Below are positions 42,110 to 60,532 of a stretch of 64,000 nucleotides of DNA, one piece after another. Below the pieces are notes generated by a model. The model was not told the DNA's origin and did no database searches. It saw only the letters and a list, made by a program, of their open reading frames with translations. The number at the start of each line of letters is the position of its first letter. The stretch's first letter is position 1. Both the position numbers and the translations under genes were made by a program. Source of the stretch: Phycisphaerae bacterium (GTDB taxonomy: Bacteria > Planctomycetota > Phycisphaerae > UBA1845); the NCBI GenBank assembly GCA_029260075.1, contig JAJDDY010000058.1:1-64000 (forward strand). Reading direction: 5' to 3'.

Positions 42110-43249
42110 TTGACAACGTTGACCTCCACACCGCAAGTATGCCACGCTGAATTCGACCGGGGAGCCATATCGCGCCTACGGGCCATCGCAATCGATTCAC
42201 TCCGTCGGATGTTCCTTCCGGAGAAGGGCCTGTTTTCGTTTCGCCTGCGCCGGACCGAGACTGGATTCGTGCTTGAGGGCATAAGTCTTCGGTACACGGC
42301 GATCTCTCTGATCGGGCTGGCCGGTGAGACCGAAGACGTGGTCCGATCCATTCTTGTGAATACCGACATCCACTCCGTCGCGAAAGCGCTCATTCACGAA
42401 ACGCAGAACATGACCAGCGTCGGTGACGTAGCGCTGGCACTTTGGGCAGGCGCTGCAGTGGGCGATGTCGACACCACCGCGGCGCGCCAACGATTGCTCG
42501 CGCTGAATCCCGCGCAGGCGGACTGCCCAACGGTAGAGCTGGCTTGGGCGGCGACGGCGCTGGCGCTCGATACGAACGTCGAGCCAGGTGACGATCCACA
42601 GGTGGGTCGCGTCGTCGGCCGTTTGATTGATTCGTTCGCCGAATCGTCCAGCCTGTTTCCACACTGGCCCCAAGGGGCGCGGGCGTCATGGCTTCGCGCT
42701 CACGTGTCCTGTTTCGCTGACTGGGTTTATCCGGTTCAGGCGCTTGCGCACTTCCACCGTCGCACCGGTCACGCACGATCGCTGGCCATCGCGCGGCAAT
42801 GTGCGGACAAAATGTGCGAGCTGCAGGGATCGGACGGGCAGTGGTGGTGGCATTTTGACGTCCGGACGGGGCGGGTCATCGAACAATACCCTGTGTACGC
42901 CGTGCATCAAGATGCGATGGCGCCGATGGCGCTCTTCGCGCTGGAGCAAGCCGGCGGCGGGGCACGACACGAGTCGATCCGGCGCGGCCTGGACTGGTTG
43001 AACCGAGCACCGGAGATCGACGCGAGCTTGGTCGACGATTCCGCGAAGGTGATTTGGCGCAAGGTGGCGCGTCACGAGCCTGGCAAGCTGACACGCAGTA
43101 TTCAAGCAGCCACGGCGCGACTGCACCCTTCGTTTCGCGTGCCGGGGGTGGACGCCGTGTTTCGACCCGGCTGGGTTGATTATGAATCTCGCCCATACCA
43201 CCTTGGATGGTTGTTGCACGCCGTCCCGAGCGGTGAGGCGATCGGATGA
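42110..43249 (+). CDS. Unknown helical-repeat protein of the polysaccharide operon
   Basis: A 379-residue soluble protein without a named family that I can assign. Helical repeats with aromatic-rich turns (LEGISLRYTAISLIGLAGE, LQGSDGQWWWHFDVRTG, VYAVHQDAMAPMALFALEQA) suggest an alpha/alpha toroid like those of glycoside hydrolase or lyase N-domains or terpene cyclases. QGSDGQWWW resembles the QW motifs of cyclases, but no DXDD or DDXXD acid motif is present. Translation probably starts at TTG 42110, since no in-frame ATG or GTG precedes conserved-looking sequence. Its stop overlaps the start of the WecG-type gene (ATGA at 43246-43249), so the two are coupled. Perhaps an enzyme or scaffold acting on the glycan. 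Confidence 0.72.
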   Translation: MTTLTSTPQVCHAEFDRGAISRLRAIAIDSLRRMFLPEKGLFSFRLRRTETGFVLEGISLRYTAISLIGLAGETEDVVRSILVNTDIHSVAKALIHETQNMTSVGDVALALWAGAAVGDVDTTAARQRLLALNPAQADCPTVELAWAATALALDTNVEPGDDPQVGRVVGRLIDSFAESSSLFPHWPQGARASWLRAHVSCFADWVYPVQALAHFHRRTGHARSLAIARQCADKMCELQGSDGQWWWHFDVRTGRVIEQYPVYAVHQDAMAPMALFALEQAGGGARHESIRRGLDWLNRAPEIDASLVDDSAKVIWRKVARHEPGKLTRSIQAATARLHPSFRVPGVDAVFRPGWVDYESRPYHLGWLLHAVPSGEAIG

Positions 43250-44907: not shown

Positions 44908-46248
44908 ATGGCGATTCAGATGTCGACAACAGCGCACAGCTTGGACATGGGTCGCACGCCACATTTGCTCGGCGGTTCAGGCGGCGCCCGCGCCATGGTG
45001 GACCAATCAGTCGTGTCAGAACACTGCGACCACACCACATTAAAGTCAGTTGCTCCTCACCAAGAGGCGCCCGCGCCGTCGCGGGTACGCTTGTTGTTGC
45101 TCGTGAGCAGCTTGGAGTTCGGCGGCGCCGAGCGGCAGGTCGTGCATCTAGCCAATCATCTTTCGTCCGATCGGTTCGATGTGTCCGTGTGTTCGTTGTC
45201 GCCGTTCGTGCCGCTCGCTGACGATTTGCATGATCGCGAGCGTCGATTGCACATTGTCGCGCGCCGATCTCGGTTTGATCTTGCAGTTGTGGGTCGTGTG
45301 GCGGATTTGATGGAGCGGCTGCGGACGCAAGTTGTACATGGGTTCCTGTTCGACGCGGAGATGATCGGTCGCCTCGCGGCACGATCGGCGCAAGTGCCGG
45401 TGGTGATCGCCTCAGAGCGGAATTCCAATTACCGCATTCCCTGGCTTCATTGGTGCGGTCAACATCTGACTCTGTCGATGTTCGACGTGATGATCGCCAA
45501 CAGCGAAGCGGGTAAGCGGTTCAACATGAGGACGCTTGGTTTGCCGGCGTCGCGAATCAAAGTAATCCGCAATGGTGTCGACACGGATCGATTTCGACCG
45601 GACGGTTCGTCGACGCTTCGGACCGAGCTCAACTTGCCCGACGATGCGTTTGTCGTCGGGATGGTGGCGAAGTTCAAGCGGCAGAAAAACCACGGCGTCT
45701 TTCTTCGCATGGCGCGGAAGGTGCTTGAGCGGGTTCCCAACGCGTGGTTCGTGTGCGTGGGTGAACCGCTACGCGACAACTTCGAGGGCGCGGAAGATTA
45801 CCATCGCGAAATGCGGGAAGTCATGACGACACTCGGGCTTGAGCAGCGGTGCCTTCTACTTGGCAATCGCGCGGACATGCCGGACGTGTACCGCTCGCTC
45901 AACGTAGCCGTACTCACGTCGCTGCGCGAGGGGACGCCGAACGTCCTGCTCGAAGCCATGGCCTGTGGCGTGCCCGTTGTCGCCAGCGATGTGGCCGACA
46001 ACCGGCTGGTGGTGCCCGACAAGGAGGCCGGTTTCATCGTGCCGCCGAACGATGTCGACGAGACGGCGCGGCGCGTCTCTGAACTTGTGGATGGTACAGT
46101 TAGGAAACGAATGGGTACGGTCGGTCGGCGGTGGGTTGAGCAACATTTTTCTCTCGATGCCCTCACACGGCAGACGCAGCAGGTTTATCTTGACGCGCTT
46201 GGGCGATCGTGCAACGCACAGCCAACCCCGTGCGGAGCGGCCTCATGA
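44908..46248 (+). CDS. Glycosyltransferase, GT4 family
   Basis: Retaining GT-B glycosyltransferase of about 446 residues. The GT4 core starts with LLLLVSSLEFGGAERQVVHLA and ends with the nucleotide-sugar site: SLREGTPNVLLEAMACGVPV, where the EGTPNVLLEAMA segment holds the E-x7-E pair. KRQKNHGVFLRMARKVLERV and VIRNGVDTDRF are further GT4 marks. The start is uncertain: ATG 44908, 44920 or 44995 are all in frame, and none has an ideal ribosome site. The frame continues upstream through repeats. No membrane helices; it acts at the inner face of the membrane. The end overlaps the next gene at ATGA. Confidence 0.88.
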   Translation: MAIQMSTTAHSLDMGRTPHLLGGSGGARAMVDQSVVSEHCDHTTLKSVAPHQEAPAPSRVRLLLLVSSLEFGGAERQVVHLANHLSSDRFDVSVCSLSPFVPLADDLHDRERRLHIVARRSRFDLAVVGRVADLMERLRTQVVHGFLFDAEMIGRLAARSAQVPVVIASERNSNYRIPWLHWCGQHLTLSMFDVMIANSEAGKRFNMRTLGLPASRIKVIRNGVDTDRFRPDGSSTLRTELNLPDDAFVVGMVAKFKRQKNHGVFLRMARKVLERVPNAWFVCVGEPLRDNFEGAEDYHREMREVMTTLGLEQRCLLLGNRADMPDVYRSLNVAVLTSLREGTPNVLLEAMACGVPVVASDVADNRLVVPDKEAGFIVPPNDVDETARRVSELVDGTVRKRMGTVGRRWVEQHFSLDALTRQTQQVYLDALGRSCNAQPTPCGAAS

Positions 46249-47492
46249 TCGGGCGCACGTTGGGCTCGGCTGTGGCGTACCTGGTGTTGCTTGGTAGTTA
46301 CGCCGGAACGCTCGCCTTTGCCCGCATCGGCCGGCTGATTCCACATCGACGTCGCGAACCCTCGGGTTGTCTTGTGGTCACTGGCACGTTCTTCAGTAGC
46401 AATTGGTTCGCGTCGCACGCGAAACCGCTGGCCGCGTCCGGACTCGATCGAGTTGTTTTCGTGGCTGACGAGCCGCAGGACGCGCCGTCCGGTGTCGTAT
46501 TCCTTTGTCCACCGCGCTGGTTCTCTGCGTGTTTCGGGCGGGCGATGGCGAAGAGCGTCTGGTTGTTTGTTGCGGGATGGCGTTACAATCCGGACCTGTT
46601 CATGGGCTTTCATCTTATCCCCGGCGCTATGGGCTCACTGCTCGCGGGGCGTTGGTTCGGGCGACCGACTTGTTATCAGATGACCGGCGGACCGATCGAG
46701 ATTATCGGTGGTGGTTATCAAAGTGAGAACAGCGTCACGACCAAGCTTGCCCGGCCTTCGCGATTGCTGGAACGATTGGCGATGAGCGTGGCGTGTGAAC
46801 ATGATCTTGTCGTCGTGCGCGGAAGCGGCGCCAAGGCGTACATGACGAAACACCTTCGACGTGGCACGGTTGAGATCATTACGGGAAGCATCCCGCCCGT
46901 TCAGGGCCAACCGCTCGATCAGCGAACGTATGACATGGTGTTCGTCGCGCGGCTGACTTCGATCAAGCAGCCGGAGCAATTCATCGACATTGTTGGACGG
47001 ATCGCGGAGACGATGCCCTCACTTCGTGCGGTCGTCATTGGCGACGGCCCGGAGCTTGCGTCATTGAAAGAGCAGGCGTCGCGATTGGGCGTCGACGACA
47101 ACGTCACGTTCCTCGGTCACTGCGACGATGTGATGGGCGTATTGCGTCAGTCCAAAGTATTTGTCTTGACCTCAAAGAGTGAGGGGCTGTCGATCGCACT
47201 GGCTGAAGCGATGGGCGCGGGCTTACCCGGCGTGGTGGCCGACGTGGGCGATCTTGCCGATCTCGTGCACGATGGCGAAAATGGATACCTCGTTCGTCCG
47301 AACGATGTGGACACCTACGCGAAGCGCGTGGCTTCTATTCTTGCGGATCCGGATCTGTGGTCGAAGCTTTCGGTTGAGGCGAGCGAGCTGGCGCGTCGAA
47401 ATCATTCTGTGGACGCGGTCGCAGCGCGGTGGCGTCGTTGCCTTGCCGAGTTGTGCAACGGTCGCAGCGAACAAGTGGCGGTGGACGCGTGA
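46245..47492 (+). CDS. Glycosyltransferase, GT4 family with N-terminal hydrophobic segment
   Basis: A 415-residue GT-B enzyme. The start at 46245 overlaps the preceding stop (ATGA) and has GGAG seven bases upstream. Residues 1-30 contain a hydrophobic stretch (LGSAVAYLVLLGSYAGTLAF), perhaps a membrane anchor. The GT4 C-domain follows VFVARLTSIKQPEQFIDIVG, VVIGDGPELASLKEQASRLG and SKSEGLSIALAEAMGAGLP, with the usual E-x7-E. TGGPIEIIGGGYQSEN is the acceptor-side loop. The C-terminus overlaps the next gene by GTGA. The donor and linkage are not predictable. Confidence 0.88.
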   Translation: MIGRTLGSAVAYLVLLGSYAGTLAFARIGRLIPHRRREPSGCLVVTGTFFSSNWFASHAKPLAASGLDRVVFVADEPQDAPSGVVFLCPPRWFSACFGRAMAKSVWLFVAGWRYNPDLFMGFHLIPGAMGSLLAGRWFGRPTCYQMTGGPIEIIGGGYQSENSVTTKLARPSRLLERLAMSVACEHDLVVVRGSGAKAYMTKHLRRGTVEIITGSIPPVQGQPLDQRTYDMVFVARLTSIKQPEQFIDIVGRIAETMPSLRAVVIGDGPELASLKEQASRLGVDDNVTFLGHCDDVMGVLRQSKVFVLTSKSEGLSIALAEAMGAGLPGVVADVGDLADLVHDGENGYLVRPNDVDTYAKRVASILADPDLWSKLSVEASELARRNHSVDAVAARWRRCLAELCNGRSEQVAVDA

Positions 47493-48997
47493 GAAACGCC
47501 CTGACGAGTCGCGATGTGGCTGTCTTCGCTGGTTGCGATGGGTACAGCCGCGAAGCGCCCTTTTCGCCGGGGCAACAGTTTGCCGAGTATCCATTTCCCG
47601 GTTCGACGGTTTCGAGCACGCCGAACCCTGCGTATGAAGGTGTTCGCGGCGCGTTGGAACTGTTGGGCTTGGACGAAGAACATGCAGGGACGGATGCGTG
47701 GAATCCGCTGGGCACGTGCATTCAGCCCGGCGACACGGTAGTGATCAAACCGAATTTCGTTCGTGATTTTCGCGAATCTAGTGAAGACCACGCGGATTGT
47801 TTGATCACGCACGGCGCCGTCGTTCGTGCCGTCGCAGATTACGCATTGATCGCGCTGAAGGGGAAAGGGCGACTGGTTGTTGCTGATGCGCCGCACAATG
47901 ATGCCGATTTCGGCGCGATCCGTCGTATCGCGGCGCTCGATGAATTGCAATCGTTCTATGCTACGCACGCGCCGGTGCGACTTGAGGTGTACGACCTGCG
48001 CCCGGAGCAAGCCCGCAAGATCGACGGGGTGATCGTCGGGCACGAATCGCTGCCAGGCGATCCGGCCGGGTATGTGAGGGTCAACCTGGGGTTGCGGTCT
48101 GCGTTTGCGGAGATCAACGATCTTTGCCACCTATTGTATGGCTCGGAGTACGACACACGCGAGTTGTTTCGCCATCAGCACGACGACGTTCACGAATACA
48201 TGATATCGAGGACGGTGCTCGACGCGGATGTGGTCGTCAGTGTTCCCAAGCTCAAGACGCACAAGAAGGTTGGCCTCACCGTGAACTTGAAGAATCTCGT
48301 GGGGATCAACGGAAACAAGAACTGGCTGCCGCACCATCGTGAGGGTGTGCCGGCGCAGGGGGGTGATCAGTTTTCCGACAATCGCGCGAAGCATCGAGTC
48401 GAACGGACCACGGTGGCTTTGTTCAAGCGCGTGTTCCCGCTGTTGGGACCGTTGCGTGGTTCGGTAGCGGGGCCGATCAAGTCTGTTGGCAAGAAAATAT
48501 TCGGCGATACCAACGACGCGACCGTGCGCTCGGGAAACTGGTACGGTAACGATACAACGTGGCGGATGGTGTTGGACCTGAACCGTATCCTGACCTACGC
48601 CGATGCGGCCGGTTGCTTGCATGATAGGCCCGTTCGCCGGTTTTTCAGTATTGTCGATGGTGTGGTTGGTGGCGAGGGCAACGGTCCGCTCGATGCGACG
48701 CCGCGAGAGACAGGCGTGATCATCGCCGGTAGTAATGCGGTAGCCGTCGATCTGGTCTCCGCTCGGCTAATGGGTTTCGATCGGGCGCGCATACCGATTT
48801 TGCATCGTTCGTTCGAGGCGCACGAATGGCCGCTGACGGCGTTCAGTGTACAGGACGTAGCCGTGCATTCGAATCGTTCAGACTTGACGGGTAGCGTTGG
48901 CGACTTAGAGGGATCGTTGTTTGCGTTTGAACCGCATTTCGGTTGGACGGGGCATGTCGAGTTATCCTCCCAAGATCAAGGCTTGGCGAATGATTGA
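47489..48997 (+). CDS. DUF362 domain protein in polysaccharide operon
   Basis: A 502-residue DUF362 protein, the second in the window. GTG 47489 overlaps the previous stop (GTGA). Family marks are GDTVVIKPNFVRDF (near residue 88), VVVSVPKLKTHKKVGLTVNL, KNLVGINGNKNWLPHH, VDGVVGGEGNGP and AGSNAVAVDLVSARLMGFD. The first 25 residues resemble no signal peptide. It differs from the 24344 protein by an insert of about 80 residues after WLPHH. Known DUF362 proteins lack an agreed function; position between glycosyltransferases and the methyltransferase-CapK fusion suggests a role in glycan modification or lipid-linked intermediate handling. Confidence 0.87.
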   Translation: MRNALTSRDVAVFAGCDGYSREAPFSPGQQFAEYPFPGSTVSSTPNPAYEGVRGALELLGLDEEHAGTDAWNPLGTCIQPGDTVVIKPNFVRDFRESSEDHADCLITHGAVVRAVADYALIALKGKGRLVVADAPHNDADFGAIRRIAALDELQSFYATHAPVRLEVYDLRPEQARKIDGVIVGHESLPGDPAGYVRVNLGLRSAFAEINDLCHLLYGSEYDTRELFRHQHDDVHEYMISRTVLDADVVVSVPKLKTHKKVGLTVNLKNLVGINGNKNWLPHHREGVPAQGGDQFSDNRAKHRVERTTVALFKRVFPLLGPLRGSVAGPIKSVGKKIFGDTNDATVRSGNWYGNDTTWRMVLDLNRILTYADAAGCLHDRPVRRFFSIVDGVVGGEGNGPLDATPRETGVIIAGSNAVAVDLVSARLMGFDRARIPILHRSFEAHEWPLTAFSVQDVAVHSNRSDLTGSVGDLEGSLFAFEPHFGWTGHVELSSQDQGLAND

Positions 48998-49036
48998 GCG
49001 GTGCGCTCCGGATCGCGTAGCACGACAGGTAGGCCA

Positions 49037-51250
49037 ATGAGACAGACGATGGAAGAAACCTTGCCAATAGAAACTGAAACCGATGCCACGCCGGGTAGCG
49101 CCAAGTTCTTCGGCGCTCAGGCCGACCGTTGGCACACGTTGTATGAGCGCAAGGCGTGCTTCGTCGACCGGTTGAACCTGTTCACGGGAACGGTGCAAAG
49201 ATTGTTCCCAACCGGTGGTACGGTGCTGGACGTCGGTTGCGGCGCCGGAAACATCGCGCTTGAGTTGGCGGAGTTGGGCTATCGGGTCGTCGGTGTCGAC
49301 GGGGCGCCGCAGATGATTGAGCAAGCCAAGGCGGAGTGTTCCCGGCGCGGGATTCAAAACGCGGAATTTCGAATCGCGGACCTGTCCGAATCCGTGTTTG
49401 ATGCAGGCCGGTTTGATGCCGTGGTTTGCTCCAGCGTTATCGAGTACATCGAGGACGACGCATCGTTCCTCGCTCGGATTTCCGACGCGCTGCGCCCGGG
49501 CGGATTCCTACTGTTGTCGGTACCCAATGCGTCGAGCCTGTTGGGACGGTTGGAAGACGTTGTCGCCAAAATCCCCGGGTTCACCGGTCCGGTGAATCAC
49601 GCCCACTTGAACTTCTCGTTGAGACGGTATGGATCGAAGACGCTTCGTGCGTCGTTGGCGCGGACGGGATTGGAATGGTCGAGTTCAGTCCTTTTTGAAG
49701 TGCCGATTCCCGGCCGGTTGGGTGTCATGGTTTCGAGACTCCCAGCGATTGGTGTGCTGCGGTTGGTCATCGCGGAAAAGTCTGCTCCGTCGTTGCAACC
49801 GTCCGAGGCAGCGCGCCGGAAGAATCGTCCGCGTGCCAGAACGCGTGCGTGGTCTCGAAAGAACCTTTGGGAGGCGACCCCAGCGTCTGTCAAAGCGGTT
49901 GTCGGGATTGCCACAGGTCGCTTGCCAACCGCTTGGCTGTTGGGACGAAGTTTCCGTCGCACGTTGGCGTTTGTGCAAGAGGCGCAAACGTGGTCGTCGG
50001 AACGCACGCGAACCTATCAACTCGATCAACTCCGCCGGATTTGTACCTTGGCCTATGACAAGACCAAGTTCTACCGCGAGCGGTTCGACTCGGTCGGCTT
50101 TCATCCCAAAGATATCAAGTCGCTCGACGACATGCGGCGGTTGCCGACGATCGACCGGAACACGCTTCGTGGCCACATGGACGACATGTGTACCGTTTCG
50201 CCGGACGGAATTGGAATCGACATCGTTTCCACCGGCGGATCCAGCGGGGAGCCGTTGAGGTTTTACATCGGGACGAACCGGTCCGCCTTCGAATACGCAT
50301 ATCTTGTCGCCAGTTGGTCACGGATCGGGTATGAGTTGAGCGTGCCGCAAGCGGTTCTTCGTAGCGAGGTGGTGCCGAGAAACCGAAAGGGTCTTCGCCA
50401 TTGTTACGATCCGATTCTCCGGCGGCACTACTACAGCAATTTCCACATGGACGACGAGAACATGCGTCGCTACGTTGAACACGTGGCGACGCTCGGCCCT
50501 TGCTTCCTGCACGTCTATCCGTCGTCGGTGTCGGCGTTGGCCCGTTTTATCGAACGCTCGAATATGACGCCGCCACCGAATGTCCTGGGCGTCATCGCAG
50601 AGTCGGAGATCGTATATTCGGACCAACGCGAGACTGTCGAGAAGGTCTTCGGGTGTCGATATTTCTCCTGTTATGGGCATTCTGAGCGGCTTGTTCTGGC
50701 GTCTGCCTGCGAGCAATCTGACGACTATCATGTGTGGCCTACGTACGGCTACTTCGAGCTGCTTGACGAGAACGATCAACTGATTACCACGCCCGGGCAA
50801 CGCGGTGAGATCGTTGGGACAGGGTTTATCAACACGGTAATGCCGTTCATTCGCTATCGGACCGGCGACTACGCGACGTATGTCGCGAGTCGGTGTGAAG
50901 CCTGTGGTCGGAATCATACGATTCTGCGTGACATTCGCGGCCACCGGACACAGGAAATGCTTGTGGCTGCTGACAACTCGCTGATCGCTTGGACGGCGCT
51001 GAATATGCACGATGACACTTTTGCCAACGTGCGACAGTTCCAGTTCTATCAGGACTCGCCGGGGCGCGCGGTGCTGAAGATCGTTCCGGCGGATGGCTTC
51101 TCAAAACAGGACGAGCAGCGGATTATTCGGAGCTTGGCACGCAAGCACGATGGCCGGCTCGACATCGACACGGCGTTGGTTGACTCGATTCGCCTGTCGT
51201 CAATCGGCAAGGCGATATACGTTGACCAGAGACTTGAGGTGAAAGGATAG
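49037..51250 (+). CDS. Fusion of SAM methyltransferase and CapK/PaaK-like adenylate-forming enzyme
   Basis: One uninterrupted frame of 737 residues with two enzyme domains. Residues about 20-240 are a class I methyltransferase: VLDVGCGAGN at 63-72, VVGVDGAPQMI, and a motif IV equivalent FDAVVCSSVIEYIEDD. Residues about 300-737 resemble CapK and phenylacetate-CoA ligase: STGGSSGEP (from Ser398) for ATP, YGHSERLVLASACEQS, RYRTGDYATYVASRCEACGR with a CxxC, and a C-terminal AMP-binding_C-like part. The linker (240-300) is basic. ATG 49037 is favoured over 49001. Two bases separate it from the next gene. Plausible job: activating an acyl group as adenylate for a glycan while a methyl group is added, in one chain. 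Confidence 0.85.
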   Translation: MRQTMEETLPIETETDATPGSAKFFGAQADRWHTLYERKACFVDRLNLFTGTVQRLFPTGGTVLDVGCGAGNIALELAELGYRVVGVDGAPQMIEQAKAECSRRGIQNAEFRIADLSESVFDAGRFDAVVCSSVIEYIEDDASFLARISDALRPGGFLLLSVPNASSLLGRLEDVVAKIPGFTGPVNHAHLNFSLRRYGSKTLRASLARTGLEWSSSVLFEVPIPGRLGVMVSRLPAIGVLRLVIAEKSAPSLQPSEAARRKNRPRARTRAWSRKNLWEATPASVKAVVGIATGRLPTAWLLGRSFRRTLAFVQEAQTWSSERTRTYQLDQLRRICTLAYDKTKFYRERFDSVGFHPKDIKSLDDMRRLPTIDRNTLRGHMDDMCTVSPDGIGIDIVSTGGSSGEPLRFYIGTNRSAFEYAYLVASWSRIGYELSVPQAVLRSEVVPRNRKGLRHCYDPILRRHYYSNFHMDDENMRRYVEHVATLGPCFLHVYPSSVSALARFIERSNMTPPPNVLGVIAESEIVYSDQRETVEKVFGCRYFSCYGHSERLVLASACEQSDDYHVWPTYGYFELLDENDQLITTPGQRGEIVGTGFINTVMPFIRYRTGDYATYVASRCEACGRNHTILRDIRGHRTQEMLVAADNSLIAWTALNMHDDTFANVRQFQFYQDSPGRAVLKIVPADGFSKQDEQRIIRSLARKHDGRLDIDTALVDSIRLSSIGKAIYVDQRLEVKG

Positions 51251-51252
51251 GC

Positions 51253-52731
51253 GTGGGAACGGACGTGCAACATCATACCGATCCACGCGCACCGCTAGTA
51301 GGCAGTGATGGAACGCGGGCGTGCGTTACCGAGCATGGCGCTGGCGGTTCTGGCGCAGCGTCGACGAGTTCTGCGCGTCCGGCGGACCGCCCAACCGGCG
51401 GCGTAGGGCGTTTCGGTCCGAAGTGGATGCCGCGTGGATCGCTCCTGCTTGTACTGCTTGTCGCTTTCTCCGCGCGAATGATCACAGCTCAACTGTACCC
51501 CATGATACAAGGGGCGACGTCGCTCTCACACGGCTCAGATGGATACGAGCACATCGGTGCCACGCTGGCCGCCGGACATGGGTTCAGGTTCGCTCAAGAT
51601 CTTTGTCAGACGATGTTGTTGCCACCGGTGTACCCGTTGTTCTTGGCGGTACTGTTTCTTTTCACCGGCCCGAGTTTGTTTGCGACAACGTTGGTTCAAT
51701 CGCTGCTGGGTGCGGGATCGTGCTACTTGCTCTACATCTTGGGCAAACGCCACGGCGGTCATCGCGCTGGTCTATTGGCGGCGTTGCTGTACGCGCTGTA
51801 CCCCGGTGCGTGGATCGGCTGTTCGCGTTATCTCACGGAACCGCTGTTCACCTTGTTGCTGCTGGGCTTCCTGGTGTTCTTGTCCGGGTTTGTTCGGACT
51901 GGCGCCAAGCCCGGACTGATCGTCGCCGGCGTCTCTGGCGCCTTGGCCGTCCTGTGCAAGAGCGTGGCCGGCTTGCTGCCGGTTTTTCTCATCATCTGTG
52001 CATTGTTCTTGCCGGGCTGGCGTCATTGTCGCCGGCGGGTTCTGGCAGGGCTTACGGTGTGTCTGTTGATTTCGCTCGTCGCGGTGGCCCCGTGGGTCTA
52101 TCGCAACTACAAGGTGTCGGGCAGCTTCGTCTATCCAACGACGTCCGGAGGACTCGCGCTGTATACGGCGCACGTGTACGCCGCACATCCCGATCAGACC
52201 ATTCGGAAATCGGTTCATCAGGCGGCCAGAGAGGTCACACAGCTCGCGGTCGACAATGGCATAAGGCTCGATCCGCGCGACAGCTATCCGCGCTGGTTCT
52301 ACACCGCGCAGGACGAGGTCAAGCTCGACCGACTCGCCCAGCGCGTGGCGCGGCAACAGATGGCTGGCGATCCATTCGGGTACGTACGTCATGTTTCGGG
52401 TAACTTGTGGCGGTTCTGGTGGGGCGCGCCGTCGCCCAAGGCCATCGTTCTCTCTGTGTTGATCAACACGCCGTTCATGCTGCTCGGCGCCTTCGGTTTG
52501 TACCGCACACGTGCTTGGCGTCATCCTGATTTGTCTTTGTGTCTGGCCGCAGCCATGTATTTGTTCATGGCGCACGTTGGTATTCTAGCGGTCGTTCGCT
52601 ATGCGCTTACGGTAATGCCGATCCTCTGTCTCTTTGGCGGACTGGGCGTGGTAGAATGGCAGAATAGACGTCGCTGTGACAAGTCTCGTCGTGTCGACGC
52701 CGGCGATGTAGCACCAGTTCTGAGCACTTGA
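51253..52731 (+). CDS. GT39-like integral membrane glycosyltransferase
   Basis: A 492-residue polytopic protein with 9-12 membrane helices, resembling PMT/ArnT-type enzymes that use polyprenyl-phosphate sugars on the outer face of the membrane. The first extracellular loop LSHGSDGYEHIGATLAAGHG holds the acidic Asp near residue 97, followed by LPPVYPLFLAVLFLF. GLLAALLYALYPGAWIGCSR and LTEPLFTLLLLGFLVFL are typical. Residues 1-60 are an unusual polar extension before the first helix. GTG start at 51253 with AAAGGA just upstream. The GT2 at 53600 could make the polyprenyl-phosphate donor. Confidence 0.82.
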   Translation: MGTDVQHHTDPRAPLVGSDGTRACVTEHGAGGSGAASTSSARPADRPTGGVGRFGPKWMPRGSLLLVLLVAFSARMITAQLYPMIQGATSLSHGSDGYEHIGATLAAGHGFRFAQDLCQTMLLPPVYPLFLAVLFLFTGPSLFATTLVQSLLGAGSCYLLYILGKRHGGHRAGLLAALLYALYPGAWIGCSRYLTEPLFTLLLLGFLVFLSGFVRTGAKPGLIVAGVSGALAVLCKSVAGLLPVFLIICALFLPGWRHCRRRVLAGLTVCLLISLVAVAPWVYRNYKVSGSFVYPTTSGGLALYTAHVYAAHPDQTIRKSVHQAAREVTQLAVDNGIRLDPRDSYPRWFYTAQDEVKLDRLAQRVARQQMAGDPFGYVRHVSGNLWRFWWGAPSPKAIVLSVLINTPFMLLGAFGLYRTRAWRHPDLSLCLAAAMYLFMAHVGILAVVRYALTVMPILCLFGGLGVVEWQNRRRCDKSRRVDAGDVAPVLST

Positions 52732-52883: not shown

Positions 52884-53603
52884 ATGAGTCCGGAGCTTAA
52901 TTCAAGGGGCGAGACCGGTACTCACAATAACGGAGTCGCCCGCGCCGCGACTGCCCTTTACCCCTGTCCCCAGCTCGATCAGTCGGTCGAACGCACGCGG
53001 TTCCTTCACAAACGTCGTGTGGCGAAATCGGTTTACGATTTCATTGGTGCCCCCCTACGCATGATCGCACTGCCGGATGAGTGGAGCACGCGCGTTGGGT
53101 TTACCAGCCTCGAAGATGAGCGATTGCGGATGGTACTGCCCGTCATATCGGGGCGCGTGTTGGACATCGGCGCCGGGAACAATCGTCTCGTCGATCTCTA
53201 TGGGAACGGCGTCGGCGTGGAAGTCCACGACTGGGGCGGTGGGGCACAGGTCGTCGAAGACACACGAGACCTTCCCTTTGAAGACGGGTCGTTCGACACG
53301 GTTACGTTCGTCGCGTGCTTGAACCACATACCCTATCGCGACGAGGTTCTGGTTGAAGCCAAGCGTGTGTTGAAGCCGGGCGGTCGCGTGGTCATTACGA
53401 TGATCGGACATTTGATCGGCAAGGTAGGCCACGCCATCTGGTGGTACAGTGAGGACAAGCATCGCGAACTGGCCGAGGGTGAACTGATGGGGATGACCCC
53501 GAAGTTCGTGACCGACCTGCTGGCCGAGGCCGGATATACCAACTTGATTCATCAGCGTTTTCTTTATCAAATGAACCATCTCTTTGTGGCGACCAGACCA
53601 TGA
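52884..53603 (+). CDS. Class I SAM-dependent methyltransferase
   Basis: A 239-residue cytoplasmic methyltransferase of the Methyltransf_11 type: motif I VLDIGAGNNR, motif II GVGVEVHDWG, DLPFEDGSFDTVTFVACLNH (motif IV region) and LKPGGRVVITMIGH. The N-terminal 60 residues contain MSPELNSRGETGTHNNGVAR and a helical region before the fold. GGGAG lies six bases before ATG 52884. Its stop overlaps the GT2 start (ATGA). It may O-methylate the sugar product of the following transferases or a lipid; the substrate is not predictable. Confidence 0.85.
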   Translation: MSPELNSRGETGTHNNGVARAATALYPCPQLDQSVERTRFLHKRRVAKSVYDFIGAPLRMIALPDEWSTRVGFTSLEDERLRMVLPVISGRVLDIGAGNNRLVDLYGNGVGVEVHDWGGGAQVVEDTRDLPFEDGSFDTVTFVACLNHIPYRDEVLVEAKRVLKPGGRVVITMIGHLIGKVGHAIWWYSEDKHRELAEGELMGMTPKFVTDLLAEAGYTNLIHQRFLYQMNHLFVATRP

Positions 53604-54616
53604 CCGCGACAGTTTCGACCAAGAAAATTCAATCCACTCCTGCGGTCGTTCCCGACCCGCCGACCCAACCCGACTGGGGTACGCTGTCGGTGATCATCCC
53701 GGCGTTTAACGAAGAGGGCGGTATCGGCGACACGCTTAGAGAGTTGCGCGAGTCGTGCCCGGATGTCGAGATTATCGTAGTGAATGACGGGTCGTCGGAT
53801 CGAACCGCGGAGATTGCCGGGGACATTGAGGGCGTGTGCGTGTTGGCGCACGCCCGCAACCGCGGCTATGGCGCTGCGCTTAAGACGGGTATTCGAAACA
53901 CGTCGAGGCCATACGTAGCCTGGTACGACGCCGACGGACAACACCGCCCGGCCGACTTGATGGCCGTTGCGGCTCCGGTTTTGAGCGGTGACAAAGACGT
54001 CGTCATCGGCGTACGCGGGAAAGACTCGGCGAAGGTGCGCGATCGTGTACTGGGGAAGAAGGTGTTGGGGTTGGTGGCCCGCTTGGTAAGCGGTGAGCGC
54101 ATCCCCGATCTCAACTCCGGGCTGCGCTGTTTTCGTCGCGGGGTGGTGGCTCGCTACCTGCATCTTTTCCCGGACGGATTCTCCGCTTCGACCACGTCGA
54201 CGTTGATGGTCCTCAAGCGTGGCTATCGTGTGGGCTACGTGCCGATCGTCGTCAATACGCGTGTTGGTGCATCGACGGTACGCATTTTCGCCGACGGGTT
54301 TGCTACGCTTCAACTGATCATGCGAATCGTAGTGCTCTTCGAGGCGTTCAAAGTGTTCGCAATACTCGGCGCGGCGTTGCTTGTGCCCGGGCTCATCTAC
54401 GGGTTTGCGCTCGCGGTGTTTAGGGGCGAGGGTTTCCCGACTTTGGCTGGTACCGCTGTCATCTCCGGACTACTCACGTTCTTCATTGGAATTCTGGCCG
54501 ATCAGGTCGTGGAGCTGCGCAAGGAGCGATTCGAGGACAGTCCGGAAGCGCCGGTCCAACCCACGACGGGCAAGCATGCTGTTCGCGGGTCGGAGCATCG
54601 CGCGGGCGGACACTGA
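53600..54616 (+). CDS. Glycosyltransferase family 2, polyprenyl-phosphate sugar synthase-like
   Basis: A 338-residue GT2 enzyme with SVIIPAFNEE (residue 30 on), VNDGSSDRT, YDADGQHRP (the DxD-type metal site) and PDLNSGLRCFRRGVV, as in dolichol-phosphate mannose synthases. Two C-terminal hydrophobic segments (KVFAILGAALLVPGLIYGF and TAVISGLLTFFIGILADQVV) anchor it. It probably transfers a sugar from a nucleotide to undecaprenyl phosphate, giving the donor for the GT39-like gene. It begins inside the previous stop and shares one base with asnB (TGATG). Confidence 0.88.
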   Translation: MTATVSTKKIQSTPAVVPDPPTQPDWGTLSVIIPAFNEEGGIGDTLRELRESCPDVEIIVVNDGSSDRTAEIAGDIEGVCVLAHARNRGYGAALKTGIRNTSRPYVAWYDADGQHRPADLMAVAAPVLSGDKDVVIGVRGKDSAKVRDRVLGKKVLGLVARLVSGERIPDLNSGLRCFRRGVVARYLHLFPDGFSASTTSTLMVLKRGYRVGYVPIVVNTRVGASTVRIFADGFATLQLIMRIVVLFEAFKVFAILGAALLVPGLIYGFALAVFRGEGFPTLAGTAVISGLLTFFIGILADQVVELRKERFEDSPEAPVQPTTGKHAVRGSEHRAGGH

Positions 54617-56577
54617 TGTGCGGAATCGCGGGCATTTACCATTTTGAGCACCCGGACCGGCCGGTCGACCTTCCGGTTCTTAAAGCCATGACGCGCAGCC
54701 TCGCGCATCGTGGTCCCGATGGCGAGGGCGTCTGGCGGCGGCCGGGCGTCGGGCTTGGACATCGCCGACTGGCCATCCTCGACCTTACGAACAACGCCGG
54801 TCAGCCGATGGTCGATGAGTCCAAGAAGCGGGCGATCACCTACAACGGCGAGATTTACAACTATCGCGAACTGCGCCGCGCGCTTGAGACCAAGGGCCAC
54901 GTGTTTCGCTCCGACAGCGATACGGAAGTGATCCTCGTTGGCCATCGCGAGTGGGGCGCGGACGTTGTCGGCAAGCTGTCGGGTATTTACGCCTTCGCGA
55001 TCTGGAACGAAGAGAAGCGCGAGCTATTCCTGGCACGCGATCCCATTGGCGTCAAGCCGCTGTTCTACTCAATATCCAGCGGTACCTTTCGATTCGGTTC
55101 GGAAGTCAAGGCGATTCTTAGCGATCCCTCAGTCGACCGCGCCTTCGACGCCGAAGCGCTCGACGCCTTTCTTACCTTCAGCTACACCCCCGCTCCGGCT
55201 ACGGGGTTTCGCGCTGTGCGGCAGTTGTTGCCCGGACATTGCGCGCTGGTGAACGAGCACGGGATGCGGGCATGGAGCTTTTGGGACTGCCCTTATTCTG
55301 AACGCCCGGCTGCGATCGATTTTGATGACGCCCTGAGTGAATTCACCGACCGCTTCGATCGAATCACGAACGCCCAAATGGTGAGCGATGTTCCGGTCGG
55401 AGCGTTCCTGTCCGGCGGATTGGATTCGGCAGCCATCGTACGCGGAATGACCCGGTCGGGGGCGGGCGATGTTCATGCGTTGACTGTGGGCTTCGATGTT
55501 CCTGGTTTTGATGAGCGCGACGCAGCCCGCGAGACGGCCGCAAGCTTGGGTGTCGAGTTGGCGGAGCAGGAGTTGGCGCTTGATGCGGCCGCACTGTTAC
55601 CGAAGCTCTCTTTGCACATGGAAGAGCCGACGGCTGATTCGTCCATGCTTCCGGTATACCTGTTGTGTCAGGCGGCGAGACAGCGATTTACCGTGGCCAT
55701 GTCCGGTGACGGCGCTGACGAAATTCTGGCTGGATACGATACGTATCGTGCCACCGCGATGGCAGCGAAGTATCGCGCGATTCCGCGCTTTATTCGGCGC
55801 GGTCTTGTCGAACCGCTTGTGCGATGTCTTCCTGTCGGCGACGGGAAATATGGGTTGCATCAGGTAGGTACGCGTTTCGTGCAAGGTGCGTCGCTCGGTG
55901 CGGGGCGCGACCACTGCGCGTGGCGGATTATCTTCACCGACGCCCTCAAGCAACGCCTCTACTCAGCCGACTTTCGACAGAATGTGGCGCAATGTGACCC
56001 TCTGGGCGCTTATGCCGAACACATTGGCACACCGCCGGCCTCGCGCGAGTCGCTCGCCGGTCTGCTGAACGCCGACACATCGTTCTACTTACCGAACGAC
56101 ATGTTGATCAAGGTAGATCGCATGAGCATGGCCCACGGTCTTGAAGTTCGCGTACCGTTCCTCGATATCGAAATGGTTCGTTTCTGCGCCGACCTGCCCG
56201 GCGAGTTCAAACTGCGCCGGGGGAAACGCCGCAAGCACATATTGCGGGAGTCGTTGCGCGGGTCGATTCCGAGTGACGTACTCGATCGTCCCAAGTCGGG
56301 CTTCAACATCCCCGTCGAACGTTGGATGCGCGAGTCACTTCGAGATCTCTTGTTTGACGCCGTGGCTACCTGTCGGGATGAACTGTCGAAGTTCCTTGAC
56401 CTTTCCGAACTCGAACGCGTCGCCAACGAGCACCGCGACCGCAAGGCCGATCACGGCCACCTGCTGTTTACGGTCATGATGTTTGCGCTGTGGCTGGACA
56501 ATGCGGCACGATGTTGGAAGCCGAGTACCGATTCGGAGACCGAGCGCGTGGCCGACGCCGTGCGGGTGAGCGAATGA
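54616..56577 (+). CDS. asnB: Asparagine synthase (glutamine-hydrolysing) family
   Basis: Cytoplasmic amidotransferase of 653 residues. The N-terminal class II glutaminase begins MCGIAGIYHF with Cys2 as nucleophile, followed by SLAHRGPDGEG and YNGEIYNYRELR. The synthetase domain has ATP loop SGGLDSA (residues 266-272), VAMSGDGADEILAGY and VRVPFLDIEMV. All key residues are present, so it should be active. In exopolysaccharide loci such enzymes are thought to amidate a uronic acid or another carboxylate rather than make free asparagine. It overlaps the GT2 gene by one base and is followed by an esterase-like gene after 31 bases. Confidence 0.9.
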   Translation: MCGIAGIYHFEHPDRPVDLPVLKAMTRSLAHRGPDGEGVWRRPGVGLGHRRLAILDLTNNAGQPMVDESKKRAITYNGEIYNYRELRRALETKGHVFRSDSDTEVILVGHREWGADVVGKLSGIYAFAIWNEEKRELFLARDPIGVKPLFYSISSGTFRFGSEVKAILSDPSVDRAFDAEALDAFLTFSYTPAPATGFRAVRQLLPGHCALVNEHGMRAWSFWDCPYSERPAAIDFDDALSEFTDRFDRITNAQMVSDVPVGAFLSGGLDSAAIVRGMTRSGAGDVHALTVGFDVPGFDERDAARETAASLGVELAEQELALDAAALLPKLSLHMEEPTADSSMLPVYLLCQAARQRFTVAMSGDGADEILAGYDTYRATAMAAKYRAIPRFIRRGLVEPLVRCLPVGDGKYGLHQVGTRFVQGASLGAGRDHCAWRIIFTDALKQRLYSADFRQNVAQCDPLGAYAEHIGTPPASRESLAGLLNADTSFYLPNDMLIKVDRMSMAHGLEVRVPFLDIEMVRFCADLPGEFKLRRGKRRKHILRESLRGSIPSDVLDRPKSGFNIPVERWMRESLRDLLFDAVATCRDELSKFLDLSELERVANEHRDRKADHGHLLFTVMMFALWLDNAARCWKPSTDSETERVADAVRVSE

Positions 56578-56608: not shown

Positions 56609-58111
56609 ATGCTAGCGATACTTCGATGGTCGATCATAGTTGCAAGTCTTCTGTGGATGGCTGTCATTTGTCTGGGAACGGCCAAGTCGTCCGACCCGCT
56701 TTGGGCGTTGACGGCCTTTCGAAGCGTCGTACCTGCTGACGGCGTACTGCTGTTATGCACATACCTCACATGCTCGTTCGCGCTGCCAATTGTGGGCTTG
56801 TCGTGCTTCGTTGGGAAGATCGCCCGAGGTGATCCGTCTCGCCTGATGATCGGCGGGATTGTAGGGGCTTGCGTCGGCGTTTTTCTGGACTACCTGCAAT
56901 TTGCGATGCCGTTCGCTGGCGATATCGTCAACGTGCCCGGGCTACCGGCCGTCTTGATGTTTCACGGCGATGGGCGACTCGCTGAGATTTGGGCGGTTTC
57001 GTTTTGTGCGAATGTTGCCGTCTTCGGCACGCTCGGTCTAGTGCTTGGCTGGGCGTTGGGGCGACCGCGATCGACCGTGGGCCAAGACGACTCGACCGAT
57101 GGGCGGATCGCACAGCAGCTAGACGTCGAGCGCACGATCAAACGGGTGGCCGGCGGCGTGACGGTCTGCGTGCTGCTGCTCGTAGTTGCACTCTGGCGGT
57201 TCGGCCCCGGCACAGCCGGTGTTGGGGCGCTACTCGCGCAGTTTGACGCCGCATCGGGCGTGCGTTATTCGCGCGATATCGTTTTTGGTCGAGCGGACGG
57301 CGTTGAGTTGAAGCTCGACCTGTGCAAGCCAGCACGTTCAACCGACAGATTGCCTGCGGTTGTGTGTATTCATGGCGGCGGATGGCGTGGCGGCAAGCGC
57401 TCCGAGTACGTTCCACTAATTGTGCAGCTCGCGCAGCGCGACTATGTGGCTGTTACGATCGACTATCGACTCGCACCCGCGCATCACTTTCCGGCGCAGG
57501 CTGAGGACGTCAGGTCGGCGATTCGTTGGATCCGGAAGCATGCCGACGAGTTCGGCGTCGACCCGGAGCACATTGGCTTGGTCGGCTGGTCCGCCGGCGG
57601 ACACCTTGCGTGCTTCGTTGGCGTCACTGGTACGCCGGTGGTTTCGCGGTCTGGTGAGTCCATCGCCACGACCGAATTGGGCGATCTATCGCTGTCAGCC
57701 AACGTACAAGCTGTAGTGAGTTTTTCGGGTCTGAGCGATCTGACAGCGGACTACTGGAACGAATTATCGTCGGGGCGTCGCGCCCTGGTTGGCGGCGGAT
57801 CGGGCGATAACGCGGCGGCGTACCGTTCAGCATCACCGCTTGCGTACGTCGATCGAGACGAGCCTCCGTTTTTTCTGGTGCATGGGGCTGCGGACGCGGT
57901 CGTTCCGCTCGATCAGTCGCAGCGGCTGCGGGATCGTCTGCAAGCCGCCGATGGTGCGGCGTCTTTACTCGAAGTAGTAGGTCAGGGGCACCGGTGGTTT
58001 GGTTCAGCACTACGTAGCGCCAACCGCGATATCTTCGCGTTTCTCGATCTCTATCTAAAGGGTGGTTCCGGCGCTAAGGCTTCCGGTGCGACGCACGACG
58101 GTTCCGGATAA
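56609..58111 (+). CDS. Membrane-anchored alpha/beta hydrolase (esterase-like)
   Basis: A 500-residue protein. Residues 1-200 hold about five membrane helices (ILRWSIIVASLLWMAVICLG, MIGGIVGACVGVFLDYLQF and others). Residues 215-490 form an alpha/beta hydrolase close to the BD-FAE/lipase-acylhydrolase group: oxyanion HGGGW near 255, nucleophile Ser328 in GWSAGG, Asp in VHGAADAVVPL and His in GQGHRW. Deacetylases and feruloyl esterases share this fold. As part of the glycan operon it may remove or transfer acyl groups at the membrane. ATG 56609 lies 31 bases after asnB with a weak ribosome site. The last 15 residues are low complexity. Confidence 0.85.
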   Translation: MLAILRWSIIVASLLWMAVICLGTAKSSDPLWALTAFRSVVPADGVLLLCTYLTCSFALPIVGLSCFVGKIARGDPSRLMIGGIVGACVGVFLDYLQFAMPFAGDIVNVPGLPAVLMFHGDGRLAEIWAVSFCANVAVFGTLGLVLGWALGRPRSTVGQDDSTDGRIAQQLDVERTIKRVAGGVTVCVLLLVVALWRFGPGTAGVGALLAQFDAASGVRYSRDIVFGRADGVELKLDLCKPARSTDRLPAVVCIHGGGWRGGKRSEYVPLIVQLAQRDYVAVTIDYRLAPAHHFPAQAEDVRSAIRWIRKHADEFGVDPEHIGLVGWSAGGHLACFVGVTGTPVVSRSGESIATTELGDLSLSANVQAVVSFSGLSDLTADYWNELSSGRRALVGGGSGDNAAAYRSASPLAYVDRDEPPFFLVHGAADAVVPLDQSQRLRDRLQAADGAASLLEVVGQGHRWFGSALRSANRDIFAFLDLYLKGGSGAKASGATHDGSG

Positions 58112-58154
58112 TGTTAAACGACTTCTTCAAGCCATTCCGTCGGACAGTATCGAT

Positions 58155-59633
58155 ATGCGTATAGCAATCGTTGCACTGTTTATGTTGTTTGTCATCATCT
58201 ACGCCCAGCGTGACTGGTTCCGCGCGCTGTGTTGCGTGGTCGTGTTCACGGCGCTTACGGACTACCCCGGTCTTCCGAACCCGCTTGACGCCAAGGGCAT
58301 CAATCACTGGTCGGTGATGCTCGGGGCGGTAGTCATGGCCTGGATCATCTCACGGTTCATGCATTGGCGATCTTGGAACATTCCGCGCGGTTGGCTTATC
58401 GTCATCAGCATCTATATGTTTGTTGAGTTGGTCGGCATTGCGCGGCTCTGTTCGAACGTTGATGTGTTCAAAATGCGCGCCGCACAAATCAACTCCGGGT
58501 ACGCTTCGTACAACGTGCGTGCCGTGCTGGTTGATATGCTCTACAGTCCCCTTCGTTTCATGTTGTTGGGGCTATTGATGTTCGACGGTGTGCGGTCGAA
58601 GCGGCAGCTGTTGTACGGCCTCTGCTCGGTGCTTGGCGCCGTCTTGATCTATGCAATCGTCGTGGACAAGGAAATCCCGCTGAGCAGTTTGGCTGGCGAT
58701 GGTATGCAGTTCCGCCATCGGATTACGAAATGGACGAATCGGCATCCGAACGACCTGGCACGCCTGTTCGCAGCATCGTTCTGGATAGGCATATCCATCT
58801 GGCAGCTCAAGGTCGGGTCGTTGACGCTTCGGCGGGTTGTGCCGTTCCTCCTTGGGTTCATCGTGATTGCCCTGGGCCACACCCATTCGAGGGGTGGTTA
58901 TCTGGCGTTTGTCGCCGTGGGGATCGTAGTCGCGATCACGGTCAGCTCGTGGCGCACGTTCGCCGTGTTGGCGATGGCGGTCATTGTGGCCGGAACTTCG
59001 GCGCCGTCGATTACGAAACGAATATTCACCGGCGTCGACATGACCGGGGACCAGGCACTCGACATGGGGGAAGTAACGGCCGGGCGCGATGTGATTTGGG
59101 CGGCTGCACTCGTTGGAATAGAAGAATCGCCGTTGATCGGACACGGAAGCAAGGGGTACGTCGTGTCGTCTGCATTGATGACATCCATCGCACACGGCGG
59201 CGGCGAAGGTCACCCACATAATGCCTATCTCGAGACCCTGCTCGATCACGGGATCCTCGGAGCGTTCGGTCGACTCGGACCATTGTTGTATGTGTTGGGT
59301 GCCGGTGTTGTGCTCGTACGACGGCGGCGCGATCCATTGTTGCGGTTGGCGGGCGTGGCTGCGGTCGCGTGGGCCACCGCATGTTTCATCATGGGACTTT
59401 CAGGTCAACATTGGGGATTCTCGGAAAACTTGTTTACGTTTTGGTGTGTGGCTGGTTTGACCGTGCGTGCCTTGACGCTTCCGGACACGGTTCCGCAACG
59501 GGTTGGCGCGCCAGCGCGATATCGCCGGCAGGTGCGTCGCGCACCTGGGGCGGTGATTCGCGCAGCGCATCCTCGCGGATTGCTGCCGCGCGGAGGTCAT
59601 GGTGTTGATGACAGTAGGGCGCGAACGACATGA
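58155..59633 (+). CDS. O-antigen ligase/polymerase (Wzy_C) family
   Basis: Polytopic membrane protein of 492 residues, about 11-12 helices, with the Wzy_C hallmark near residues 330-375: a periplasmic loop PLIGHGSKGYVV, then GHPHNAYLETLLDHGILGAFG. The family polymerises repeat units or ligates glycan to lipid A core. Alongside the Wzz/BY-kinase and the flippase it most likely acts as the polymerase. The ATG at 58155 is preferred because the frame before it overlaps the hydrolase gene; no strong ribosome site is seen. The C-terminal 45 residues are basic (RYRRQVRRAPG). Its stop overlaps the sulfotransferase start (ATGA). Confidence 0.88.
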   Translation: MRIAIVALFMLFVIIYAQRDWFRALCCVVVFTALTDYPGLPNPLDAKGINHWSVMLGAVVMAWIISRFMHWRSWNIPRGWLIVISIYMFVELVGIARLCSNVDVFKMRAAQINSGYASYNVRAVLVDMLYSPLRFMLLGLLMFDGVRSKRQLLYGLCSVLGAVLIYAIVVDKEIPLSSLAGDGMQFRHRITKWTNRHPNDLARLFAASFWIGISIWQLKVGSLTLRRVVPFLLGFIVIALGHTHSRGGYLAFVAVGIVVAITVSSWRTFAVLAMAVIVAGTSAPSITKRIFTGVDMTGDQALDMGEVTAGRDVIWAAALVGIEESPLIGHGSKGYVVSSALMTSIAHGGGEGHPHNAYLETLLDHGILGAFGRLGPLLYVLGAGVVLVRRRRDPLLRLAGVAAVAWATACFIMGLSGQHWGFSENLFTFWCVAGLTVRALTLPDTVPQRVGAPARYRRQVRRAPGAVIRAAHPRGLLPRGGHGVDDSRARTT

Positions 59634-60532
59634 TTGATCTGGTCTACATTCTTTGCCCGGGGCACTCCGGGTCTACCGTTCTGGGCATGTTGCTCGGCGC
59701 TCATCCGCAGCTCGCCACCGTTGGCGAACTAAAGGTCGTTCCGTGGAGCTTCCGGAACGACGAATCCTGTTCGTGCGGCGTGGCCATGAGTCAGTGCGCG
59801 TTCTGGAGTGACGTCGCCAAGAAGCTTGACGCCAGCGGAATGGACTTGATAAGCGACCAATTCCGCACGCATATCGACAACCGCGACACGATGACGGCAC
59901 GTCTGGTGGCCGGCCAAGTTGGCGAGCACCTGGAAGAGACGGCGCGATCCGCCGTGTTGCAGTTGTGGCCACCTGCCCGCAAGTATCTGAAGGATACGCT
60001 CGCATGCAACATCGCGCTTATGCAAACGATCATGGAATTGACCGGGCGCAACGTGTTCCTCGATACGTCGAAGGACGCCTCGCGTCTGCGCTACTTGGCC
60101 AAGAGCCATCGATTCAAGATCAGCGTGGTTCATCTTATTCGCGACGGACGCGCCGTAGCTTACTCATTAATTCGCAAGGGCGTCGATCCGCGCACCGCAG
60201 CAAAGGAATGGCTTGCAGAGCACGAGCAGGCGGAGAGACTTCGCGCCATGAATCTAAGTGATACGCGTTGGGTGCAGGTTCACTACGAAAAGTTGTGTGC
60301 GGACGCCGACGGTGTGCTGGCGTCACTCTGCGACTTCATCGGCGTGCGGGCGGAGGATCGAACACTCGACTTTCGCTCATGGGATAGTCACGTCTTGGGC
60401 AACCGTCTCCGGTTGTCTTCGGGTAAAGAGATTTCCCTCGACGAGCGGTGGCGCCGTGAGCTTACCGAAGAGCCCCTCGCGATCGTCGAGGAGATCACCC
60501 GGAGTACGAATCAACGCTATGGATACGCCTGA
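59630..60532 (+). CDS. Sulfotransferase family protein
   Basis: A 300-residue cytoplasmic enzyme that should move sulfate from PAPS to a hydroxyl group. The 5'-phosphosulfate loop is LCPGHSGSTVLGMLLGAHP (from residue 8) and the 3'-phosphate site is VVHLIRDGRAVAYSLIRKG (near 165). CSCGVAMSQCAFW is a cysteine-rich insert. VHYEKLCADADGVLASLCDF is the usual C-terminal block. It overlaps the polymerase gene by four bases and the flippase gene by 14. It points to sulfated sugars in the polymer, or to sulfation of a lipid-linked precursor. Confidence 0.88.
   Translation: MIDLVYILCPGHSGSTVLGMLLGAHPQLATVGELKVVPWSFRNDESCSCGVAMSQCAFWSDVAKKLDASGMDLISDQFRTHIDNRDTMTARLVAGQVGEHLEETARSAVLQLWPPARKYLKDTLACNIALMQTIMELTGRNVFLDTSKDASRLRYLAKSHRFKISVVHLIRDGRAVAYSLIRKGVDPRTAAKEWLAEHEQAERLRAMNLSDTRWVQVHYEKLCADADGVLASLCDFIGVRAEDRTLDFRSWDSHVLGNRLRLSSGKEISLDERWRRELTEEPLAIVEEITRSTNQRYGYA

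Follow-up and report, generated by a model that had tools for sequence, protein, structure and literature searches.

A CapK-type protein has been tied to the exosortase system since the original exosortase paper, where a passage on Nitrosomonas ranks the CapK protein NE2015 15th among the best profile matches to PEP-CTERM (PMC1569441). Methyltransferase (MT) modules are known from multimodule glycan enzymes, among them WbdD, an MT-kinase (PMC3482155), and ORF6 of Klebsiella pneumoniae O7, with the architecture MT-kinase-glycosyltransferase-glycosyltransferase (PMC11231755). The literature that we searched contained no description of an MT joined to CapK, no assigned reaction or partner for the CapK-type ligases of polysaccharide loci, and no biochemical function for CapK, DUF362 or PaaK in such loci.

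The 64,000-nucleotide stretch of Phycisphaerae DNA analyzed here (the window) carries a gene that encodes both activities in a single open frame. The frame runs on the forward strand, as do all window features described below, from an ATG at 49037 to a stop codon ending at 51250, without interruption (737 codons, 737 aa); a GTG at 49001 is a possible upstream start. The original prediction described this frame as a complete MT followed by a complete adenylate-forming domain, and on this point ORF analysis, Pfam, NCBIfam and a PDB profile agree; the four motifs on which that description relied were recovered at the residues given for them. The MT domain (49037-49786, residues 1-250; PF13649/PF08241/PF13489) contains motif I, VLDVGCGAGN (49223-49252, residues 63-72), and matches the Methyltransf_25/11/23 models over the full domain (E about 1e-22, residues 52-213; 81.9 bits to the full PF13649 profile). 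The (E/D)xGxGxG motif and the complete Methyltransf fold place it among class I SAM-dependent methyltransferases, and its SAM-binding motifs, including motif I and the acidic SAM residues, are invariant in all five MT domains aligned. A basic, poorly conserved linker follows (49787-49852, residues 251-272), with no ATG, GTG or TTG at the position of the ancestral CapK start.

The remainder of the protein (49853-51247, residues 273-737) is a PaaK/CapK-type adenylate-forming domain, as indicated by NCBIfam, PaaK structures in the PDB and relatives within the order (53-61%). PaaK/CapK-type ligase models match residues 315-643 (1e-38 for the DVU_1553 family, 1e-25 for PaaK models), and PaaK structures are the closest solved structures (profile match 1e-51). 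The AMP-binding family PF00501 scores under the Pfam threshold in this protein, so the second domain would escape a search that used Pfam alone. The signatures of the enzyme class are all present: the P-loop STGGSSGEP (50228-50254, residues 398-406), the A5 motif YGHSE (50672-50686, residues 546-550), the A7 motif RYRTGD (50852-50869, residues 606-611) and the A10 Gly-Lys (51206-51211), whose K725 is the catalytic lysine of the small C-terminal subdomain. In an alignment of 26 CapK domains the core is invariant, including both P-loop glycines, the Y, G and E of A5, R606, Y607 and D611 of A7, and the A10 pair; the third residue of RYRxxD is nearly so. C620 and C623 of a CxxC motif (CEAC, 50894-50905, residues 620-623) are likewise invariant, as are C558 and H565, and these four residues could form a putative zinc site. 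With their catalytic motifs kept, both halves look active. An AlphaFold model of the fusion, built from a four-row alignment, had a mean pLDDT of 44.6 and a pTM of 0.32, a quality too low to be of use.

The gene lies in a polysaccharide operon. A Wzz/Wzc-type chain-length determinant and tyrosine kinase (39650-41950; Pfam), a GT4 glycosyltransferase (GT4b, 46209-47492) with CapK-fused homologues elsewhere, and a DUF362 gene (47429-48997; PF04015), which is directly upstream of the fusion, precede it. The DUF362 domain and LarA racemases share Pfam clan CL0471 (PMC11770544). A 379-aa gene beside WecG (42110-43249) is kept in many loci; it has no Pfam match and a weak IspD-like match in NCBIfam. 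Next downstream of the fusion is a PMT_2-type membrane glycosyltransferase-like protein (51253-52731), followed by a second, separate methyltransferase (52884-53603), an AsnB-type amidotransferase resembling the XrtA/PEP-CTERM amidotransferases (54616-56577), a Wzy_C/O-antigen ligase-like polymerase (58062-59633), a sulfotransferase (59630-60532) and a Wzx-type flippase frame (60258-62213) whose mechanically assigned start overlaps the preceding gene. WecG-type, GT4 and GT2 transferases and a BD-FAE-like esterase are also encoded in the window.

About 6 kb beyond the window, at 70068-70832 of the same contig, is an exosortase gene (PF09721); downstream of it lie a CTERM-tailed protein and a large, PrsT-like TPR protein. 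The CTERM-like tail (L056, 11758-12528) was recognized by eye rather than by an HMM. With exosortase, this tail, glycosyltransferases, Wzx, Wzy and Wzc in place, the locus is of the exosortase/PEP-CTERM exopolysaccharide type. Exosortase occurs on the same contig as CapK, within about 25 kb, in six relatives (G003, G033, G040, G044, G049 and G086); because exosortase is near universal genome-wide, its presence elsewhere in a genome is uninformative. The type of locus also bears on whether the protein might be a WbdD-like chain terminator that adds a methylated cap to the glycan at its non-reducing end. The glycan locus does encode an MT fused to another enzyme that activates a group, and WbdD is among the PDB matches of the MT profile, but that match reflects the generic SAM fold only. 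WbdD-type terminators combine an MT, a kinase and a coiled-coil ruler in an ABC-transporter pathway, whereas this protein has no kinase match and its locus is of the Wzx/Wzy type with an exosortase. We therefore regard a terminator as highly improbable.

Several observations confirm, at the level of sequence, that the MT-CapK frame is a genuine gene for a single polypeptide. Full-length fused homologues occur in two other genomes of the same order and family, G030 (56% identity) and G099 (56%; the same contig record as OFTM5), bringing the intact copies to three genomes including the window. In a third relative, G019, an MT C-terminus (E 4e-12 against the window) is joined to CapK at a contig end that cuts the copy. 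The form is found across genera, so the fusion is not peculiar to this genome with homologues split everywhere else, an outcome that the original prediction had named as fatal to its proposal. Standalone CapK proteins share the start consensus M/V-K-x-A-x-S-R-K-N-L-W, and a start codon (ATG or GTG) occupies this ancestral site in all 27 standalone genes and in just one of 13 fused genes (p = 2e-9). The exception is G020, whose own fusion is doubtful for that reason. The codon is gone in all four MT-CapK copies, which leaves the CapK half without a separate translation start at the old site. We weighed the alternative that a sequencing or assembly error removed a stop codon between two genes, since the genomes are drafts in many contigs. 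The same continuous frame in three separate assemblies at 56% identity, together with the lost internal start, led us to reject it, and the presence of a GT2-CapK fusion in a complete isolate plasmid (see below) is also against it; the chance of such an artefact is negligible.

CapK was matched at E under 1e-60 in 42 of 114 genomes of the order. In the majority it stands alone, in keeping with the premise that the two activities usually reside on separate polypeptides. A second CapK paralogue, about 25% identical, is found near the first in six loci (L042, L046, L052, L075, L080 and L081). Besides the MT fusions, Pfam and NCBIfam HMMs confirm GT4-CapK in G007, G071, G086 and G089 (and the doubtful G020), AsnB-CapK in G021 and G022, CapK-CapK in G049, and DUF362-GT4-CapK in G014, there as a frame of 1447 codons (L039:8155-12495). 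In every fusion of the order the partner joins the N-terminus of CapK. We rejected the long frames of G029, G092, G094, G104 and others as chance upstream frames, since they have the usual CapK start and no partner homology that we could find. The MT is one of several CapK partners. MT orthologues were found in four of the 114 genomes (the window, G030, G099 and, as a separate gene, G020), and this rarity indicates that the MT is not an obligatory partner. The CapK-domain tree does not resolve its backbone; the four MT fusions are ungrouped, with no bootstrap tree placing them on one side of a branch, which makes at least two fusion events likely without forcing that conclusion.

The tendency to fuse is concentrated at CapK. 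In a scan that took in every adjacent, co-directional pair of window-gene homologues in the loci collected, 31 pairs have CapK as their second member, and 12 of these are in one frame; among the remaining 102 adjacent pairs there is a single case (p = 4e-8; the genomes are related, so this value is approximate and serves as a guide only). These counts bear on a near-neutral origin, in which adjacent co-transcribed genes merge by stop loss and a floppy linker is tolerated without functional coupling. Such an origin would account for the partner being the gene found just upstream of CapK in relatives (GT4 adjoins CapK yet is unfused in 7 of 13 cases) and for linkers that vary in length and sequence. 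It does not readily account for the excess of fusions into CapK over those between other genes of the same loci, for the persistence of the MT-CapK form across genera, or for the absence from the scan of any fusion with CapK as the upstream member, save with itself. We consider near-neutral merging improbable, though it deserves more weight than the artefact or the terminator.

The same partner swapping bears on the proposal, made in the original prediction, that the fusion activates an acyl group and methylates the same building block. In favour of the two domains modifying one building block in sequence (acyl activation followed by methylation, or the reverse), both sets of motifs are intact, and the fusion is kept in divergent lineages at 56% identity. 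But sister genomes fuse the same CapK to GT4, AsnB, DUF362-GT4 or CapK, which gives a shared building block no preference, and most CapK-bearing relatives are without an MT orthologue, so CapK does not depend on this MT. Sequential action on one block is possible but unlikely, somewhat more so than near-neutral merging, and it is not favoured over either that or simple tethering. The further suggestion of a link to polysaccharide loci with DUF362 or AsnB held for the former, which is directly upstream in all three intact fused loci and adjoins CapK or MT-CapK in many relatives. AsnB is present in two of the three (the 19 kb of G099 showed none), and its link is therefore not universal. DUF362, MT and AsnB do not all co-occur with CapK.

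The theme common to the fusions is a CapK tethered to some repeat-unit enzyme. Guided by the partner-swapping fusions for the tethering and by family knowledge for the chemistry, we think it somewhat probable that the window protein, encoded in an exosortase-associated exopolysaccharide locus of the Wzx/Wzy type, is a decorating enzyme with two functions that is tethered to the line on which the repeat units are assembled. The CapK half would convert ATP and a small carboxylic acid to an acyl-adenylate, and the acyl group would then pass to CoA or straight to a sugar or a repeat unit carried on a lipid. The MT half would carry out S-adenosylmethionine-dependent O-methylation (N-methylation being less likely) of a sugar or acyl group in the same assembly line, acting on the same intermediate as CapK or a neighbouring one. 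The benefit of the fusion would be to hold CapK within the repeat-unit assembly complex, its N-terminus attached to whatever repeat-unit enzyme the adjacent upstream gene encodes. A broader reading, which we advance tentatively, is that the CapK N-terminus serves as a general plug-in point, repeatedly welded to the preceding enzyme of the repeat-unit pathway (MT, GT4, AsnB, DUF362-GT4 or CapK), perhaps because CapK has to modify the lipid-linked unit on the spot as it is being built. On this view exosortase exopolysaccharide loci would contain a modular hub for acyl decoration, with the MT fusion as one case of it. The swapped partners name the enzymes that work beside CapK (glycosyltransferase, amidotransferase, methyltransferase and DUF362), which makes its role testable, and they suggest that in planctomycetes the exosortase/PEP-CTERM system decorates its repeat units with acyl or amide groups.

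A phylum-level search of 392 genomes for CapK returned one match besides the window's own, at 31% identity, and a set of 72,556 plasmids contained no full-length match to MT-CapK. The viral contigs yielded one further CapK sequence, and a DNA pattern scan gave no match. On one contig classed as viral (IMGVR_UViG_3300034104_006466; L093:1834-3841) a sugar-pathway cluster includes a CapK-type gene whose first 8 bases are shared with an FkbM-type methyltransferase gene, an independent and unfused MT/CapK adjacency. Five unannotated gut phage records (H26-H30) hold distant CapK-like proteins at 22-26% identity. On the finished plasmid pROLI127 of Roseobacter litoralis, WP_187431085.1 (L176:5161-7377), annotated as a glycosyltransferase only, is by its sequence a 738-aa GT2-CapK fusion, so that a distant and independent fusion exists in an alphaproteobacterial isolate.

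Compared with described systems, the CapK half shares with PaaK/CapK proteins of the COG1541 type (4r1l, 2y27, 2y4o) the P-loop, YGxSE, RYRTxD, CGR and the terminal GK lysine. It differs from PaaK in the sequence of the hinge and C-terminal subdomain (GHRTQE ... ALNMHDDTF), in a segment of about 45 residues ahead of the PaaK homology, and in its polysaccharide setting. All of its NCBIfam ligase matches score under the equivalog cut-offs, with 88 bits against a cut-off of 646 for phenylacetate-CoA ligase (TIGR02155) and 133 against 300 for the DVU_1553 family AMP-dependent CoA ligase (NF045666), its best NCBIfam relative. The MT half resembles the DVU_1556 methyltransferase family, a lower-ranked match (57 against 155). 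Neither half is thus a member of these DVU families, which owe their names to two genes of a single genome with locus tags three apart and, unlike the fusion, are separate polypeptides. NE2015, likened here by description rather than by sequence, is a CapK-type protein tied to an exosortase exopolysaccharide system, as the fusion's locus is, and the passage that describes it mentions no fusion, unlike MT-CapK (PMC1569441). The Roseobacter protein likewise joins a polysaccharide enzyme to the CapK N-terminus near a CTERM sorting protein (VPLPA-CTERM), although its partner is GT2 rather than an MT and its CapK is 28% identical. WbdD and O7 ORF6 resemble the fusion in that a covalent link joins their MT module to another module that modifies glycans (PMC3482155, PMC11231755); they differ in having a kinase instead of an adenylating domain, in belonging to an ABC-transporter pathway and in terminating chains. 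By analogy, both are functional precedents for MT modules in multimodule glycan enzymes.
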